52,710 nucleotides of DNA, taken from Phycisphaera sp. (lineage in GTDB: Bacteria > Planctomycetota > Phycisphaerae > Phycisphaerales > Phycisphaeraceae). Position 1 is the stretch's first letter, and each line of letters begins with the position of its first letter. A program made the position numbers and the translations under genes. The stretch is from positions 1 through 52,710 of the forward strand of contig JANQPR010000105.1 in the NCBI GenBank assembly GCA_028285385.1, in the 5' to 3' direction. This document shows, piece after piece, positions 31,585 to 39,115 of this stretch. The notes beneath the pieces were generated by a model that saw only the letters and a list, made by a program, of their open reading frames with translations, was not told where the DNA came from and did not search any database.

Positions 31585-31740
31585 TTCGATCGTGCAGAAT
31601 CTTGTCCCAGAATTGAAACCCGTGTCCCGTCCGTGCGTCGGTTCGCCAAGGCAGCCAAAACACCGCGCGACTCCGCCACGACCCGGCCCGGCCCGGCTCC
31701 CGACCCTCCATCGAAACTCTTACCTCCGAGGACTTTTGAG

Positions 31741-32571
31741 ATGAGACCCACCGCTTCCCTGATCGGATTCGTCGCGCTCGCGGCCGTGATCGGCCTGTCC
31801 ACGGGCTGCACCGGCATCAAGACGCACGGCGTCGCCGACGTGAACCTGCCGTCCGACGTCGCCCGGCAGAAGATCATCGACGACACGGACTTCTGGGGCA
31901 CGATGGGCGCGTTCTTCAGCAGCGAGCAAGGCGAGAACTCGCTCGAGCAGCGGATGCTCAGCGTCCAGCAGCAGGCCGAGGAGAACGCCAACAAGGTCCC
32001 CGACGAGGCGTTTATCGAGCTGGCGCCCGAGGCGGCGCGTTGGCTGGCCCGGACGCTGCCCCGGAGCCCGGCGAGCGAGGGCCCGACCAAGAACATCCTC
32101 GTGTTCCAGAACAGCAAGTTCCCCGACACGCCCGAGGGCAACTCGTTGCGGGCCGCGGCCGACGAACTGCGGGTCAACATGATCAACAGCGACGTGCTGC
32201 AGGGGCTGTTCGTGTTCCTCTCCGAGGACGACCAGGCGGGCAACGAGGCGATCCAGAAGGCGACGAACAACCAGCCGATCGCGGTGTTCGACCCGCTGGG
32301 CAACAACAACCAGCCCGCCGCCTACCCGCCCAGCCAGGTCTACGTGATCAAGACCAAGTTCAACAAGACCACCGACGCCAACGCCCAGAAGCTGACGTAC
32401 CGGCTGACCGTCACGCTCAACAAGCCGATGCTCCGCCGGGACTTCACGTCCAAGACGTTCAGCAAGAACTTCTTCTATCAGCCGTACCGGCAGATGTGGA
32501 TCAGTGCCGAAGAGAACGGCCGGCTCCAGGAGACGTATCAGCAGAAGGTCGCCGAGAACGCCCAGAAGTAG
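31741..32571 (+). CDS. LpoB-like lipoprotein
   Basis: The 276-residue protein has a signal with lipobox STGC (Cys at 23). Its domain fits the LpoB/CsgG-fold group: PTKNILVFQNSKFPDTPEGN, a helical DELRVNMINSDVLQGLFVFL, then NNNQPAAYPPSQVYVIKTKF and repeated beta strands ending in a conserved YRLTVTLNKPMLRRDF. LpoB activates penicillin-binding protein PBP1B from the outer membrane in enterobacteria, but similarity here is at fold and pattern level, so this role is only a possibility. The ATG at 31741 has GAGGA nine bases upstream. The next gene encodes a related protein. Confidence 0.7.
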   Translation: MRPTASLIGFVALAAVIGLSTGCTGIKTHGVADVNLPSDVARQKIIDDTDFWGTMGAFFSSEQGENSLEQRMLSVQQQAEENANKVPDEAFIELAPEAARWLARTLPRSPASEGPTKNILVFQNSKFPDTPEGNSLRAAADELRVNMINSDVLQGLFVFLSEDDQAGNEAIQKATNNQPIAVFDPLGNNNQPAAYPPSQVYVIKTKFNKTTDANAQKLTYRLTVTLNKPMLRRDFTSKTFSKNFFYQPYRQMWISAEENGRLQETYQQKVAENAQK

Positions 32572-32661
32572 CCACGACGAACCCCCGCCGACTCCCGCCC
32601 GCAACCGGGTGGGAGTCGCTTCCTTTCTGTACGCCTTCCCCCGCGCGACGCGAGACCCGCC

Positions 32662-33348
32662 ATGAAGCCCCACCAACGCGTTGGTTCGTTCAGTGGTTTC
32701 CCCCGATCCGTCCGGGCGTCTCTCGCGAACACCACGCTCGCCGTGGTCACGCTCGCTCTCCTCCTGGGTTGTGAGACGACGCCCGACGCCCCGGCCCCCG
32801 CGCCGCCGCCCCGCAACGTCGTCGCCCCGCTCGAGCTGACCGACGAGTTCGTCGACGCCGCCGCCCGCGACCTCGCCCGCCGGCTCGCCAACGTGCCTAG
32901 CGTCCGCACCGCCGCGACCAAGGTCGTCCTCGCCTTCGCCCCGATCCAGAACCGCACCACGCTCTCGGGCGCGACCCTCGCCGCCGCCCAGGACCGCCTC
33001 CGCAACCAGCTCACCGGGATGGACGTCATCCAGGGCAACTTCATCCTCGTCGGCGACACCTACGCCAACGACGAAGAACTGCTCCGCGGCTTCCAGCCCA
33101 ACCCGGCCGACGTCTACGACCCGCTCGGCCCCGGGACCGCCGGCCAACCCGCGGACTACGACCCCAACCTCCTGCACCTGCTCCGCGTCTCGGCGGTCGA
33201 GGCCGGCTCCGGGGCGCAGCGCACGGTCACGATGTCCGTCCGGCTCACCCACCCCGCGTCGCGCCGCGACCTGCTCGCCACCTCGCTCGACGCCCGGCTC
33301 GTCTGGGACGGCAACCGCCGACGGTGGGTCGTCCTGCAACGCCAGTGA
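32662..33348 (+). CDS. LpoB-like lipoprotein (penicillin-binding protein activator family)
   Basis: The 228-residue protein has a lipobox (LLLGC, Cys at 37), a Pro-rich linker and a compact alpha/beta domain. In that domain KVVLAFAPIQNRTTLSGATL, DRLRNQLTGMDVIQGNFILVGD and VSAVEAGSGAQRTVTMSVRLT follow the order of LpoB, as does the ending RRWVVLQRQ. It is immediately followed by a YcfL-like lipoprotein gene, which is also the partner arrangement of lpoB (ycfM) in enterobacteria, and this strengthens the call. It may contact cell-wall synthases, but that is inferred. Confidence 0.75.
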   Translation: MKPHQRVGSFSGFPRSVRASLANTTLAVVTLALLLGCETTPDAPAPAPPPRNVVAPLELTDEFVDAAARDLARRLANVPSVRTAATKVVLAFAPIQNRTTLSGATLAAAQDRLRNQLTGMDVIQGNFILVGDTYANDEELLRGFQPNPADVYDPLGPGTAGQPADYDPNLLHLLRVSAVEAGSGAQRTVTMSVRLTHPASRRDLLATSLDARLVWDGNRRRWVVLQRQ

Positions 33349-33411: not shown

Positions 33412-33855
33412 ATGCCCGTTCCCTTTGCTCAACTCGTCCGGTGGTTCGCTCCCGCGGTGTTGGTGGCCTGCCTGCTCACGCTGCCCGGCTGCGCCGGCGA
33501 CGACAACGTGGTCGGGCCGAAAAACCCCGCCCGCGACCCCGTCCCCTCCATCGCTTACCCCAAGATCACGCTGCAAGGCGAACTTGATTACCAACTCGTC
33601 CTGCTCGGCGAGCCGGTCGTCGTGGGCGCAACCCCGACTCAGCCCATGTCCGTCCGCCTCCGGCTGCGCAACGCGACCGAGGACGACCTCTACGTCGCGT
33701 ACCGCTACCGCTTCTTCGGCCCCAGCCGCGAACCGGTCGACGTCGACATGCCCTGGCGCCCGCTGAAGCTGCCCGCCACGCTGGCCAAGGACTTCGAGGG
33801 CGACGCGATGCAGGTCCGCGCCGTGGACTGGGAACTCGAAGTCCGGCCCGATTGA
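33412..33855 (+). CDS. YcfL/DUF1425 family lipoprotein
   Basis: The 147-residue lipoprotein (lipobox LPGC, Cys at 27) has a beta-sandwich type sequence, including LRLRNATEDDLYVAYRYRFF, a pattern shared with YcfL (DUF1425). In enterobacteria ycfL sits next to lpoB, as here. The function is not established in any organism that I can cite with confidence. The ATG at 33412 follows GGAGACCACATG-type spacing. It is in the middle of the six-gene co-oriented group. Confidence 0.75.
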   Translation: MPVPFAQLVRWFAPAVLVACLLTLPGCAGDDNVVGPKNPARDPVPSIAYPKITLQGELDYQLVLLGEPVVVGATPTQPMSVRLRLRNATEDDLYVAYRYRFFGPSREPVDVDMPWRPLKLPATLAKDFEGDAMQVRAVDWELEVRPD

Positions 33856-33976
33856 TCACCACATGCCGCTTCGCCTTGGTTGCGAGTCTGTATCGCCGCC
33901 AGACCGCACCGGTTTTGAGTTGAACGAGAGCCGCCGTGGTCTTGCACGAGCGCTCGGCCAAGAAGAGAGACAGACC

Positions 33977-36900
33977 ATGAACGCTGCCCCCCGGATGTTG
34001 AGACCCGCCGCAAAACCGTCTCGCCGCCACCGCTTCAGCGCTTGGTGTGCCGCCATGCTGAGCGTGACGCTGCTCGCCGGCGTGTCGCTGGAACTGTCCG
34101 CCCAGAAGCCCGACCCACCGATCCTGGGCGGCGGTGGCAACGCCCCGGTCGCGCCGATCCAGAAGGAAGACCCCACGGCGCTGGGGCCGAACGAACTCGA
34201 CCCCGCGGTCAAGCGGCGCTTCATCGAGAAGTACGAAGACGACTTCGGGCCGGCGGTCGCGATTGAGGCCTTCGTCACGCCCGGTCCCAACGGCAAGCGG
34301 CTGGTACAGGTCGACACGTCGCTGCTCGCGGCGCAGGTCCGCCGGTTCTGGAAGCAGAACCACCCGGGCGTCGACATCGTCAGCCTCGAGGCCAACGCCC
34401 GCAACGCCGCGCAGAAGCAGCTCGCGCTGGGCCGGAACGACCCCGAAGGCGTCGCCAAGACGCTGGCGCTGGAGAGCGACGCCGAACTCGCGCTGGTGCT
34501 CAAGTGCTACCCCGCCGCGGGCCAGCCGAACGGGCAGGCGTTCGACGTGGAGTTCGACTTCCTCGACCTGCGGACCGGCGAGCTCATCACCTCCGGCCGG
34601 GGCGTCTGGCACAACCCCGGGCAGGTGCTTCCCGCCGAGATCCTCGCCCGGCACCTCACCCGCGCCGCCTGGGAGGGCTACGCCCCGCCGCCGCAGGACC
34701 CGGGCATCAACCTCGAGGTCCGCAACTTCGCCGTGACCATTACCGGCCTGTCCAACCGCGACCAGGCGCAGCAACTGACCGACGAGATCGGGCGGTGGAT
34801 CGACGGCCGGATCCGCCTCGACAACTTCGACGACGGCGGCGACCAGACCACAACCCGCATCCGCATCCGCGGCGCGTTCGACGTGCAGGGCCTGGCCGGT
34901 GAACTGGAGAAGGCAGCGGAAGAGGTCGGCGTGGCGCTCAGCGTCAGCAGCGCCCGTGGCCGGGAGATCGTCGCCGTCGCCGACGCGCTGGGTACCGGCG
35001 GGGGCGACGACGACCTGATCCAGTGGTGGCAGGACTGGCAAGTCGAGCGCGACCCGCGCGACGTCCGCCTGCTCTCCGGGTGGTCGCTGAGCAAGGAACC
35101 CGGCAACGTGGGGCTGCCCGGCACCGAGAACCAGGACCTGCTCGGCAACGACATGATGACCGGGCTCGCCAACGCGATGACCGACCCGCTGTCGCCGATC
35201 ACCAACACCGCGCTGGCCGGGCTGCGCGACGGCAAGCTCAAGGAAGCCTTCGACGACTTCGACGAGGAGGGCCTCAAGGACCTGCTCGCTAAGCGGTTCC
35301 CCGACGAGATCATCTGGCTGGTTTCCGGTCGGCCGATCCTCGCGGGCAAGGAGCTGCAGCGCGTCCGCGTCACGGTGATGGTCGTCGACACGCTGAGCGC
35401 GCAGACGCTGGCCGTGTTCAACGACGACTGGCCGAAGTTGGCGAGCGACGAACGCACGCTCGAACGCAAGGGGCGGGAGTACGTCGCCCGCGCGTTGGAA
35501 AGACTGCAAAAAGCCGAGCAGGCGCCGGCGCGGCAGCAGACTGTTTTTATCGCCGGGCTCGACGGCGTGAACGACCGGGACCTGCTGGTCGACGCGGTCG
35601 CGGCGAAGCTGCCCACCGGGGCCAAGGGCGTAAAGGTCCGTGACGCCCGGCAGGCCGACGTCGCCGGCGAGGCGGTCGTCGAGCTGTCGCTCCGCGTCAA
35701 CGCCGACGCCGCCGGCGTGTCCCGTCTGGTGCGTAGCGCGATCTTCGACGAGTTAGCCTGGCCGGTTCACGAGTACGCGTTGAACCCGGCCGTGGTCCTG
35801 CGGGTCAAGAACGCGCTCGAGGTGCCGGAGTGGGCGCTGCTCACGCCGGACGACAAGCAACGCGACCAGGCGACGCAACTGCTGCAACGCGTCGAGGGCG
35901 TGGTCTCCGAACTCGGCCGGCCGCGGGTGCTGACGCTGATGCAGACGCCCGACGACACCGTCCCGACCGAGACGCTCGAGGCGATCCAGGCGGCGGTGAA
36001 CAACCACCTGTCCAACGCCGGCCTCGACGTGCTTGATACCACCACTGCCACCGAACTCGCGCAGGCCGTCCGCAGCAACCCGGCCTACGGCGACGAACGC
36101 TCGGTGTGCGGCTTCCTCCGCGACCAGGTCCGCGCCGACTGGGCCTTGCTGGGGTACGTGTCGCGCGACGGCGACGGCCTGCGGGGGAACTTCCGGCTGG
36201 TGGACCTGCGGCTGATGGGCCGGTTCGTCACCGGCGTCACCGTCCCCGACCCCGAGGCGAAGTCGTCGCGCAAGGTGAAGGTCGACCGGAACGAGCCGTT
36301 GTCGGTGGCGCGCTACGTCGCGGGCCGGTCGCTCGGTGGGGTGCTGCGTCTCGAAGGCCGGCCGCACCGCTTAGAAGTGTTGGTGCAGGGGGCGAAATCT
36401 GGCGACCAGGTCACCGCGCTCGCGCAGCAGATCGCTAGCAACATCCCGCAGGTCGTCAGCGTCGAGAACCTGTACTTCGACTACGGCGTCGCGGGGTTCT
36501 TCGTGGTGCACCGCGGGTCGTTCAACCACCTCGCCAAGCAGATCGACCTGATCCGCGACGGGCTGCCGTTCGACCTGCAAGACGCGAAGTTCGACGCGGG
36601 CGTGTGGGTGCTGAGCCTGGACGCCCCCGCCCCGCCGAGCGGCGCGGACGTGCGCCCGATCCTCCCGGGGCAGGGCGTGATCGTGGGCCGACCGCCGGCC
36701 GTGACGCCGCCCGCCGCGGGTGTTGACGATGGCGACCACGGCGCCGCCCCGGTCGATCAGCCCGACGCGGCCGACGCGCCCGAGGGCGTCCGCACCAAGG
36801 TCGCCGAGGTGCCGCGCAGCCGGCTCGCGCCGAAGGTCGGCGGCAACGACGCGGCCGAGCGCTTCCGCCGGGAGTATGCGGAGCGCGCCCCGCTGGGCAA

Positions 36901-39115
36901 CCGGAAGCGCAGCCTGGATACCGCGGTAAGCCGGGTGTTCAACGCCGAACCGTTGCCCGAACCCGACGGGTTGTTGGTGTTCCGTGACGCGAAGCGCACG
37001 CGCAACGCCGGCGGCCGCGGGTTGCCCGCGGGGGTCGGGAGCGCGCCGCTGGCGGTGGAGCGCGTCGCCGCGGTCCGCACGCGCGGCGAGAACAACAACG
37101 ACCTGTTCGCCGCCGCCGCGCAACTGGAAGCAGAAGACCCGTCGGTCACGCTCGCGATCCCGAACCTGCCCGTGCAGGCGTACGCCGGCCCGCAGACCAA
37201 GCTCCGCGAGTTCCAGTGGACGATCCGCAACCCCGTGAACGACGGCATGGACACCGGCTGGTTCGAGGTGGCCGACCGCGTGGTGTCGTCGTCGTCGAGG
37301 CTTCCTTTGGTTGCGGTCGTTGACGAAGGGCTGAACACCGACGACGCCCGGCTGCGCGCCTTCCTCTGGACCAACCCCCGCGAGCAGGAGAACGGCAAGG
37401 ACGACGACGGCAACGGCCTGGTCGACGACGTGCACGGCTACCACTTCCCCACCAAGAGCGGCCGCCTGTACAAGCCCGGCGACGACTTCAACCACGGCTC
37501 GTTCTGCGCCTCGCTCATCGCCGGCCGACCGGGCGGCAACGCCGACGCCGTCCTCGGCCTCGCGCCGGGCGTCACCGTCCTGCCCGTCGGGGTCATGCAG
37601 TTCGACGGGCGCGGCAGCCTGCAGGACATCCTGTTCGGCATCGCCTACGCCGCCGACCAGGGTGCGAAGGTGATCAACCTTTCCCTCGGCGGGCCGATCG
37701 ACCACGACTCGCTCCGCAAGCTCAATCAGCTCGAGCTCTGGGACTGGCTGGAGAAAAAGGGCGTGCTGCTGGTGATCGCCGCCGGCAACGAGCACAACGA
37801 CAACGACCGCAACCCGCGCTTCCCGGGCTCGCTGCCGCGGCCGAACGTGATCACCGTCGCCGCGGTCGACCCGGCCGGCACCATCGCCCGCGCCCACGCC
37901 GGCGGCGGCCGCTGGCAGCCGTTCAGCAACTACGGCAAGACCAGCGTCCACATCGCCGCGCCGGGCAGCACGATCCTGGGCATCCCGCTCACCGGCCAGA
38001 CCTCGTTCTCCGACGGCACGTCCTTCGCCGCGCCGATGGTCGCCGCCGCCGCTGCCGTCGTCTGGGCCCAGCACCCCGACTGGGATTACCAGACCGTCCG
38101 CCGCGCGATCCTCGAGTCCGCCCGGCCCGTGCAAGGCCTGGAAAACAAGGTCGCCACCGGCGGCGTGCTCGACCTGCCCGCCGCGCTCGCCTGGCGCCCC
38201 GACGGCAACCACGCGGTCGGCCCCGGCAGCGGACAGCCCGGAAGCCCCGGGCAACCGAACCAGCCCCCGGCCAACCCGACGCAACCCAACCCGACCGCGC
38301 CGTCGCCCACGCCGCCCAACCCGACGAGTCCCACCAACCCGACGCAGCCCGCGCCGGTGCAGCCTGTCGCCAACAGCAACGTCGCCGTCGTGATCGGCGT
38401 CAACGAGCTTTACGAGCAGGACAACGATCTCCGCATGGCCGTGCCCGACGCGCAGGCGATGGCCCTCACCCTCACGCGTTTCGGCGGCTACCGGGTCGAC
38501 CGCGTCAACCTACTCATCGACGGCGCGAACAACGGCCGCAACAGCCCCACCGGGCAGCGCATCAAGGACGTCGTCCGCGCCGCCGCACAGGAGGCCGGAC
38601 CCAACGACACGCTGCTGTTCTACTTCTCCGGTCACGGCACGCAGACCGCCGACCGCGACGGCACGGCGCAGACCTTCCTCGTCCCCGCCGACGCCAACGT
38701 GAGCAACCCCGACACCCTCGTCTCCCTCGCCGAGCTCCGCGCGATCATCGACGGTTCGGCGGCCAAGCAGAAGGCCATCATCGTCGACGCCTGCCACGCC
38801 GGCGGCACCGGCGAGTTCCCCCGGCTCAACCCCAACGAGGCGTTCGGCGGCGCGGGCATCGTCACCCTCGCGTCCTGCACCGTCGAGCAGGAATCCATCG
38901 AGGTGCCCGACTATCAGGCCGGGCTGTTCACGCACTGGGTCACCCGCGGCCTGCGCGGCGAGGCGCGCGGCAACGACCAGACCGTCTCCGTCTTCGAGCT
39001 CTTCCAGTTCGTCAGCGGCAACGTCCCCTCGGACGCGCGACGCATGAACCACGACCAGACCCCGGTGTTCTACGGCAAGATCACGACCGACTTCCCGGTC
39101 GTGACCGTGCGGTGA
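33977..39115 (+). CDS. giant exported dual-protease protein: TolB/FlgT-like modules, subtilisin (S8) and caspase-like (C14) domains
   Basis: The 1712-residue protein has a signal peptide ending near residue 43 (LELSAQ). A roughly 900-residue N-terminal region follows, built from repeated alpha/beta modules that resemble TolB-N/LpoB/FlgT domains, for example the one starting RPRVLTLMQTPDDTVPTETL. The S8 domain spans about 1105-1400, with D1116 (VVDEGLN), H1173 (NHGSF), oxyanion N1271 (AAGNEH) and S1349 (GTSFAAPM). A Pro/Thr/Asn-rich linker (about 1415-1465) leads to a caspase-like C14 domain with H1553 (SGHGT) and C1606 (DACHAGGT). Both catalytic sets are intact. The start at 33977 has AAGAGAGA upstream; the open frame reaches back to 33863. 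It is the largest gene of a six-gene envelope group. Confidence 0.9.
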   Translation: MNAAPRMLRPAAKPSRRHRFSAWCAAMLSVTLLAGVSLELSAQKPDPPILGGGGNAPVAPIQKEDPTALGPNELDPAVKRRFIEKYEDDFGPAVAIEAFVTPGPNGKRLVQVDTSLLAAQVRRFWKQNHPGVDIVSLEANARNAAQKQLALGRNDPEGVAKTLALESDAELALVLKCYPAAGQPNGQAFDVEFDFLDLRTGELITSGRGVWHNPGQVLPAEILARHLTRAAWEGYAPPPQDPGINLEVRNFAVTITGLSNRDQAQQLTDEIGRWIDGRIRLDNFDDGGDQTTTRIRIRGAFDVQGLAGELEKAAEEVGVALSVSSARGREIVAVADALGTGGGDDDLIQWWQDWQVERDPRDVRLLSGWSLSKEPGNVGLPGTENQDLLGNDMMTGLANAMTDPLSPITNTALAGLRDGKLKEAFDDFDEEGLKDLLAKRFPDEIIWLVSGRPILAGKELQRVRVTVMVVDTLSAQTLAVFNDDWPKLASDERTLERKGREYVARALERLQKAEQAPARQQTVFIAGLDGVNDRDLLVDAVAAKLPTGAKGVKVRDARQADVAGEAVVELSLRVNADAAGVSRLVRSAIFDELAWPVHEYALNPAVVLRVKNALEVPEWALLTPDDKQRDQATQLLQRVEGVVSELGRPRVLTLMQTPDDTVPTETLEAIQAAVNNHLSNAGLDVLDTTTATELAQAVRSNPAYGDERSVCGFLRDQVRADWALLGYVSRDGDGLRGNFRLVDLRLMGRFVTGVTVPDPEAKSSRKVKVDRNEPLSVARYVAGRSLGGVLRLEGRPHRLEVLVQGAKSGDQVTALAQQIASNIPQVVSVENLYFDYGVAGFFVVHRGSFNHLAKQIDLIRDGLPFDLQDAKFDAGVWVLSLDAPAPPSGADVRPILPGQGVIVGRPPAVTPPAAGVDDGDHGAAPVDQPDAADAPEGVRTKVAEVPRSRLAPKVGGNDAAERFRREYAERAPLGNRKRSLDTAVSRVFNAEPLPEPDGLLVFRDAKRTRNAGGRGLPAGVGSAPLAVERVAAVRTRGENNNDLFAAAAQLEAEDPSVTLAIPNLPVQAYAGPQTKLREFQWTIRNPVNDGMDTGWFEVADRVVSSSSRLPLVAVVDEGLNTDDARLRAFLWTNPREQENGKDDDGNGLVDDVHGYHFPTKSGRLYKPGDDFNHGSFCASLIAGRPGGNADAVLGLAPGVTVLPVGVMQFDGRGSLQDILFGIAYAADQGAKVINLSLGGPIDHDSLRKLNQLELWDWLEKKGVLLVIAAGNEHNDNDRNPRFPGSLPRPNVITVAAVDPAGTIARAHAGGGRWQPFSNYGKTSVHIAAPGSTILGIPLTGQTSFSDGTSFAAPMVAAAAAVVWAQHPDWDYQTVRRAILESARPVQGLENKVATGGVLDLPAALAWRPDGNHAVGPGSGQPGSPGQPNQPPANPTQPNPTAPSPTPPNPTSPTNPTQPAPVQPVANSNVAVVIGVNELYEQDNDLRMAVPDAQAMALTLTRFGGYRVDRVNLLIDGANNGRNSPTGQRIKDVVRAAAQEAGPNDTLLFYFSGHGTQTADRDGTAQTFLVPADANVSNPDTLVSLAELRAIIDGSAAKQKAIIVDACHAGGTGEFPRLNPNEAFGGAGIVTLASCTVEQESIEVPDYQAGLFTHWVTRGLRGEARGNDQTVSVFELFQFVSGNVPSDARRMNHDQTPVFYGKITTDFPVVTVR

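Follow-up and report, generated by a model that had tools for sequence, protein, structure and literature searches.

For most bacterial metacaspases, to our knowledge, neither the natural substrates nor the activators are known. Exported members of the prokaryotic family have been described, as have WD40 or FGE-sulfatase partners, in the accessible portions of two studies (PMC3501461, PMC8283722), which in those portions make no mention of a C14 domain fused to a complete subtilisin. The first of them surveys 671 sequences, and its counts, covering those with any localisation clue, give 98 membrane, 30 extracellular and only 7 intracellular cases, many of the 98 being probably signal peptides. 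The preliminary description of the present locus had held prokaryotic caspase-like proteins to be usually cytoplasmic and an exported one tethered to a subtilisin to be unusual. Those counts do not support the first opinion: exported prokaryotic metacaspases are no rarity (PMC3501461), and the caspases encoded beside the subtilisins of related genomes also start with a signal-peptide-like or hydrophobic N-terminus.

A fusion of a serine protease with a caspase homolog is already published. In Alphaproteobacteria, one protein combines a trypsin-like domain, a pseudo-orthocaspase whose dyad is lost (QC) and DUF4384 (PMC6426788), and in the protein analysed here, too, a serine protease precedes a caspase homolog within one polypeptide. 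It falls outside that group: its serine protease is an S8 subtilisin instead of a trypsin, its caspase dyad is intact, DUF4384 is absent, and the TolB-like N-terminus and the Pro-rich linker are its own; most of its S8 relatives do carry DUF4384. In the literature searched, which comprised few subscription journals, neither a subtilisin-metacaspase fusion nor this S8/C14 gene pair turned up. Secreted S8 subtilases with a propeptide, deseasin MCP-01 being the best solved match, share the catalytic set and the domain with this protein, which has a second, C-terminal protease and, ahead of the propeptide, a stretch of about 900 residues that includes TolB-like modules. The likeness to the TolB N-terminal domain, FlgT, CsgG and LpoB lies in the fold of residues 643-793; compared with these, the protein has no visible propeller, pore or lipid anchor, and its sequence similarity to them is undetectable.

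The window analysed, a stretch of 52,710 nucleotides from Phycisphaera sp., encodes this protein in a frame that is open throughout (33863..39115, forward strand), with a start ATG preceded by AAGAAGAGAGACAGACC (Table 1). The central claim of the preliminary description, one exported 1712-residue polypeptide with two intact protease active sites, has held: Pfam recognises both domains far past cut-off (PF00082, residues 1110-1391, E 1.5e-42; PF00656, residues 1468-1706, E 6.7e-21), and the six catalytic residues that it had named all sit at the numbers it had given (Table 1) and in the right motifs. The Sec-type signal peptide was recovered by a hydropathy scan, in which the only other clear hydrophobic segment lies inside the S8 core. 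Loss of catalytic residues in close orthologs was also looked for, and the sets proved intact in all eight S8 relatives aligned and in 17 C14 relatives. Judging by these sequence features, the two proteases would form a system located outside the cytoplasm.

Table 1. Features of the fusion gene and its neighbours (positions in the window; residues of the encoded protein)
Feature	Positions	Strand	Details
LpoB-like lipoprotein	32662..33348	+	first gene of likely operon; weak relatives in L034, L147, L150 near related genes
DUF1425 (YcfL)-like lipoprotein	33412..33855	+	PF07233, E 1.2e-5, slightly below gathering score
Fusion gene, 1712 aa	33977..39115	+	signal peptide, TolB-fold modules, S8 propeptide and domain, Pro-rich linker, C14 metacaspase
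Sec-type signal peptide, residues about 1-42	33977..34102	+	hydropathy scan; inferred cleavage site between RRHRFSAWCAAMLSVTLLAGVSLELSA and QK
N-terminal region, residues 78-882	34208..36622	+	probably three tandem TolB-N-like modules, ~275 residues each
Best-modelled module, residues 643-793	35903..36355	+	fold of TolB N-terminal domain / FlgT / CsgG / LpoB
Low-confidence, probably disordered segment, residues 885-989	36629..36943	+	Lys/Arg-rich after residue 936
Putative internal S8 propeptide, residues about 990-1066	36944..37174	+	ends ..LAIPNLPVQAY; mature start ..FQWTIRNP
S8 subtilisin domain, residues 1110-1408	37304..38200	+	D1116/H1173/N1271/S1349
Pro/Asn/Gln/Thr-rich linker, residues 1409-1466 (58 residues)	38201..38374	+	no Lys/Arg, no hydrophobic segment
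C14 metacaspase-like domain, residues 1468-1706	38378..39094	+	H1553/C1606; pocket D1491, S1551, D1604
Ankyrin-repeat protein, N-terminal hydrophobic segment	39153..40223	+	37 bp downstream of fusion gene

By its profile, its caspase fold and its HC dyad, the C-terminal domain belongs to the metacaspases and orthocaspases, with whose prokaryotic members (C14, PF00656) it has fold, dyad and acidic pocket in common. Structure prediction succeeded for this part (pLDDT about 90; match to metacaspase-4 with Z 24.1, rmsd 2.4 over 219), whereas the S8 region was modelled at low confidence, too poor to use, because its alignment had three S8 relatives only. Motifs and metacaspase alignments place D1491, S1551 and D1604 on Asp95, Ser156 and Asp211 of TbMCA2, the residues of its S1 pocket (PMC4357240), and such an acidic pocket implies a predicted preference for Arg or Lys at P1. 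The window protein is the sole full-length C14 of its genome; the other match scores 26 bits and spans less than a third of the profile. In the C14 tree the fused domain groups, on a long branch, with the C14 genes found directly downstream of S8 in G074 and G167 (98/98). Elsewhere, three closely related C14 genes occur within 11 kb of G324 (L122:3611-14900), in a fetched stretch from which the S8 subfamily is absent.

The profile and the D/H/N/S catalytic set make the preceding domain a member of S8, for which proteolysis is predicted. A profile of its subfamily, built with all nine scored members included, gives the window protein 587 bits, the weakest of the eight relatives first found 484 and the best outsider 295. 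In the S8 tree it groups with G016, G024, L034 and others, in a branching order that is not settled. Residues about 990-1066 are conserved with the S8 relatives and display a partial beta-alpha-beta pattern in the model; by likeness to S8 zymogens, they would be the propeptide. Some named assignments were tried and rejected: the IteS / IetS anti-phage S8 peptidase scored 41.9 bits against a curated cut-off of 900, on the S8 part only, and the EACC1-associated caspase (NF047832) 80 bits against 140, and a defence system was discarded because of its curated scores.

Ahead of the proteases, TolB/LpoB/FlgT-like modules had been proposed, and for residues 643-793 this stands by structure. The model of that stretch matches the TolB N-terminal domain (Z 13.2, rmsd 2.5 over 118) well above unrelated rows of the structure comparison, with further matches to FlgT (Z 11.3), CsgG (Z 9.7) and LpoB (Z 8.4). 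The proposal holds less firmly for the other modules, which lie in a part modelled at low confidence and too poor to use; a repeating secondary-structure pattern suggests that there are probably three in tandem within residues 78-882. Pfam matched no family in residues 1-1100, and the sequence alone gave no significant internal repeats in the N-terminus. This N-terminal region resembles that of L034, where it is fused to S8, and has weaker relatives among stand-alone exported proteins in G075 and G173. Since N-terminal region, S8 and C14 each occur apart in relatives, the window protein is a joining of three separately existing parts. In L148:7207-11410, a stand-alone TolB-like exported protein is followed directly by a Ser/Thr kinase with ankyrin repeats, an order identical to that of L034.

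The S8 subfamily was found in eleven genomes, the window's included (G000, G016, G024, G794, G257, G390, G865, G129, G074, G167 and G872), all of them members of the same class as the window's genome, and ten of the eleven also have a C14 domain. Besides a search of relatives, a scan of genome contigs with the S8-region alignment as query contributed to this set; a single-protein query gave none. The exception, G872 (locus L034; 94% complete), has the N-terminal region and S8 and no C14 match. Separate S8 and C14 genes are adjacent in six loci, in both orders and at distances from a 17-bp overlap to a 110-bp gap: S8 comes first in L114 (gap of 90 bp), L117 (110 bp) and L118 (18 bp), and C14 in L115 (12 bp), L162 (15 bp) and L022 (overlap of 17 bp). 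In G024, the C14 gene runs 17 bp into the beginning of the S8 gene. This adjacency marks them as a functional pair, and the link between the two proteases suggested by the preliminary description gains support from it. In G016, G129 and G794 the C14 lies on a different contig from the S8; in G129 no C14 is found downstream of S8, and the upstream side ends with the contig.

The association is specific to the subfamily. Among 397 genomes drawn from the class, a C14 match was present in 7 of the 7 with the S8 subfamily and in 20 of the 390 others (Fisher 3e-9), and in 3 of 3 (p 2e-4) after removal of the four genomes supplying C14 profile rows, both values being for genomes that share ancestry. 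A Fisher value for adjacency, which predates the addition of L162 and takes no account of common descent, is given no weight here. A phylum-wide draw of 392 genomes held no further clear member of the subfamily, its one other match (208 bits) being in the background range. As a control, 82 further S8 loci, taken from many phyla, were compared: only L111 has a C14 in the fetched stretch, about 5.6 kb away, a count that is a lower bound because some of these stretches are short. Across Phycisphaerae, the survey of architectures that had been called for finds the S8 usually as a separate exported protein and the window as the fused form of a recurrent pair. The window's genome has both members of that pair, subfamily S8 and C14, without DUF4384 before the S8: this domain, accompanied by CsgG in some of the S8 relatives, has no match in the window protein and none reported by Pfam in L034, and a TolB-like region stands there instead. 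When 41 relatives were searched with the S8-C14 part, S8 was matched closely in two proteins (49 and 47%), neither of which has a C14. No second S8-C14 fusion appeared among the relatives searched, the window protein is absent from the same-genus genome G001, and a plasmid search gave no record spanning both domains. The partner C14s do not all belong to one clade and bear WD40, FGE-sulfatase or DUF1579 as accessory domains, so that the choice of partner is loose. A recurrent exported subtilisin-metacaspase pair provides a concrete candidate for the activator or co-enzyme of a metacaspase, and the natural fusion fixes the partners at one to one; the metacaspase question thereby moves away from cell death in the cytoplasm and towards the envelope.

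In the reading that we regard as probable, gene fusion has given rise to a zymogen of the envelope that unites two proteases. Once exported by Sec, the protein would be kept at the envelope by its TolB-like part, perhaps in company with the LpoB/YcfL-like lipoproteins of the adjacent genes. The S8 domain would fold with its internal propeptide and, judging from S8 biology, cut itself near residue 1066, which would separate the TolB-like part from a freed fragment, some 650 residues long, of S8, linker and C14. With its acidic pocket, the C14 domain would cleave after Arg or Lys. Such an enzyme should not cut the linker, which is devoid of both residues, and the basic segment 936-990 is the likelier place, a detail that narrows the self-processing cascade imagined in the preliminary description; residues 885-989 hold a candidate site at which C14 may also cut, releasing the pair. 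S8 and C14 might act on one another or on a common envelope substrate. That the locus represents an extracytoplasmic proteolytic cascade of Phycisphaerae, with mutual control between a subtilisin and an active metacaspase, obligate here by fusion and on a TolB-like envelope tether, is put forward only tentatively.

An unlikely alternative, although several observations fit it, would have two independent degradative proteases sharing one compartment, for nutrient or quality-control proteolysis, with neither activating the other. The S8 and TolB-like part of L034/G872 occur without a C14, so S8 does not need C14; the varied extra domains of the C14 partners (WD40, FGE-sulfatase) are expected of enzymes with separate targets; and the linker offers no obvious C14 site. 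C14 could act on a substrate of its own and be fused merely for co-localisation. However, the specific pairing of C14 with this S8 subfamily, rare in other S8 loci, suggests more than a common location. More improbable is a role in signalling or programmed death, where the TolB/LpoB-like part would sense envelope stress and set proteases free to lyse the cell itself or those around it. The TolB, LpoB, CsgG and FlgT folds do belong to envelope parts, ankyrin and kinase-ankyrin genes lie nearby, and the two domains are hit by the caspase and subtilase models of PADLOC, but the PADLOC and IteS matches are limited to generic protease domains, the proteins carry export signals, and the neighbours scanned include no toxin, pore or defence gene.

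The zymogen reading takes the joining of the two proteases as genuine, and the junction bears this out. The S8 relatives mostly stop at the equivalent of residue 1408 or a few residues earlier (L114 and L116 differ here), and none reads on into a C14 domain. In the window, GC3 is 0.92-0.97 in the S8 part, the linker and the C14 part alike. The Pro-rich linker announced by the preliminary description occupies the place where partner C14 genes have their signal-peptide-like or hydrophobic start; since it holds neither a hydrophobic stretch nor Lys or Arg, and no stop codon, a single lost stop would not explain the junction. All this looks like one protein by real gene fusion. The frameshift or assembly error once named as its possible undoing, a missing stop or mis-assembly joining two neighbouring genes, is very improbable: the assembly is in 264 contigs and in some relatives a C14 gene does follow the S8 gene at a distance of tens of bases, but the frame is open through 1712 codons, the codon signature is constant over the junction, and a lost stop would leave a signal peptide, of which the 58-residue linker keeps no trace.

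A strong terminator-like hairpin (32589-32618) separates two tandem paralogous lipoprotein-like genes (31633-32571 and 32662-33348; hhalign 97%), which puts the probable start of the fusion gene's operon at 32662. For LpoB membership of these upstream lipoproteins there was no Pfam, NCBIfam or PDB sequence match, so 'LpoB-like' stands for resemblance in length and pattern only. The LpoB-like and YcfL-like genes of the window recall the E. coli order ycfL-lpoB. The window, L034 and G075 each have an LpoB-like gene upstream. Downstream, L034 and G173 have a kinase with ankyrin repeats, and in L034 and L148 the place of the window's ankyrin gene is taken by a Ser/Thr kinase that bears such repeats.

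LPP20 or FlgT_N-type genes occur near the S8/C14 pair in L114:4427-14617, L160:2-904 and L117:3234-4226, and L114 also has ExbB/ExbD genes nearby; a larger group of envelope genes may accompany the pair. In L114:10141-12075 and L117:14572-16848, caspase domains are linked with FGE-sulfatase domains, a combination already described for cyanobacteria (PMC8283722).
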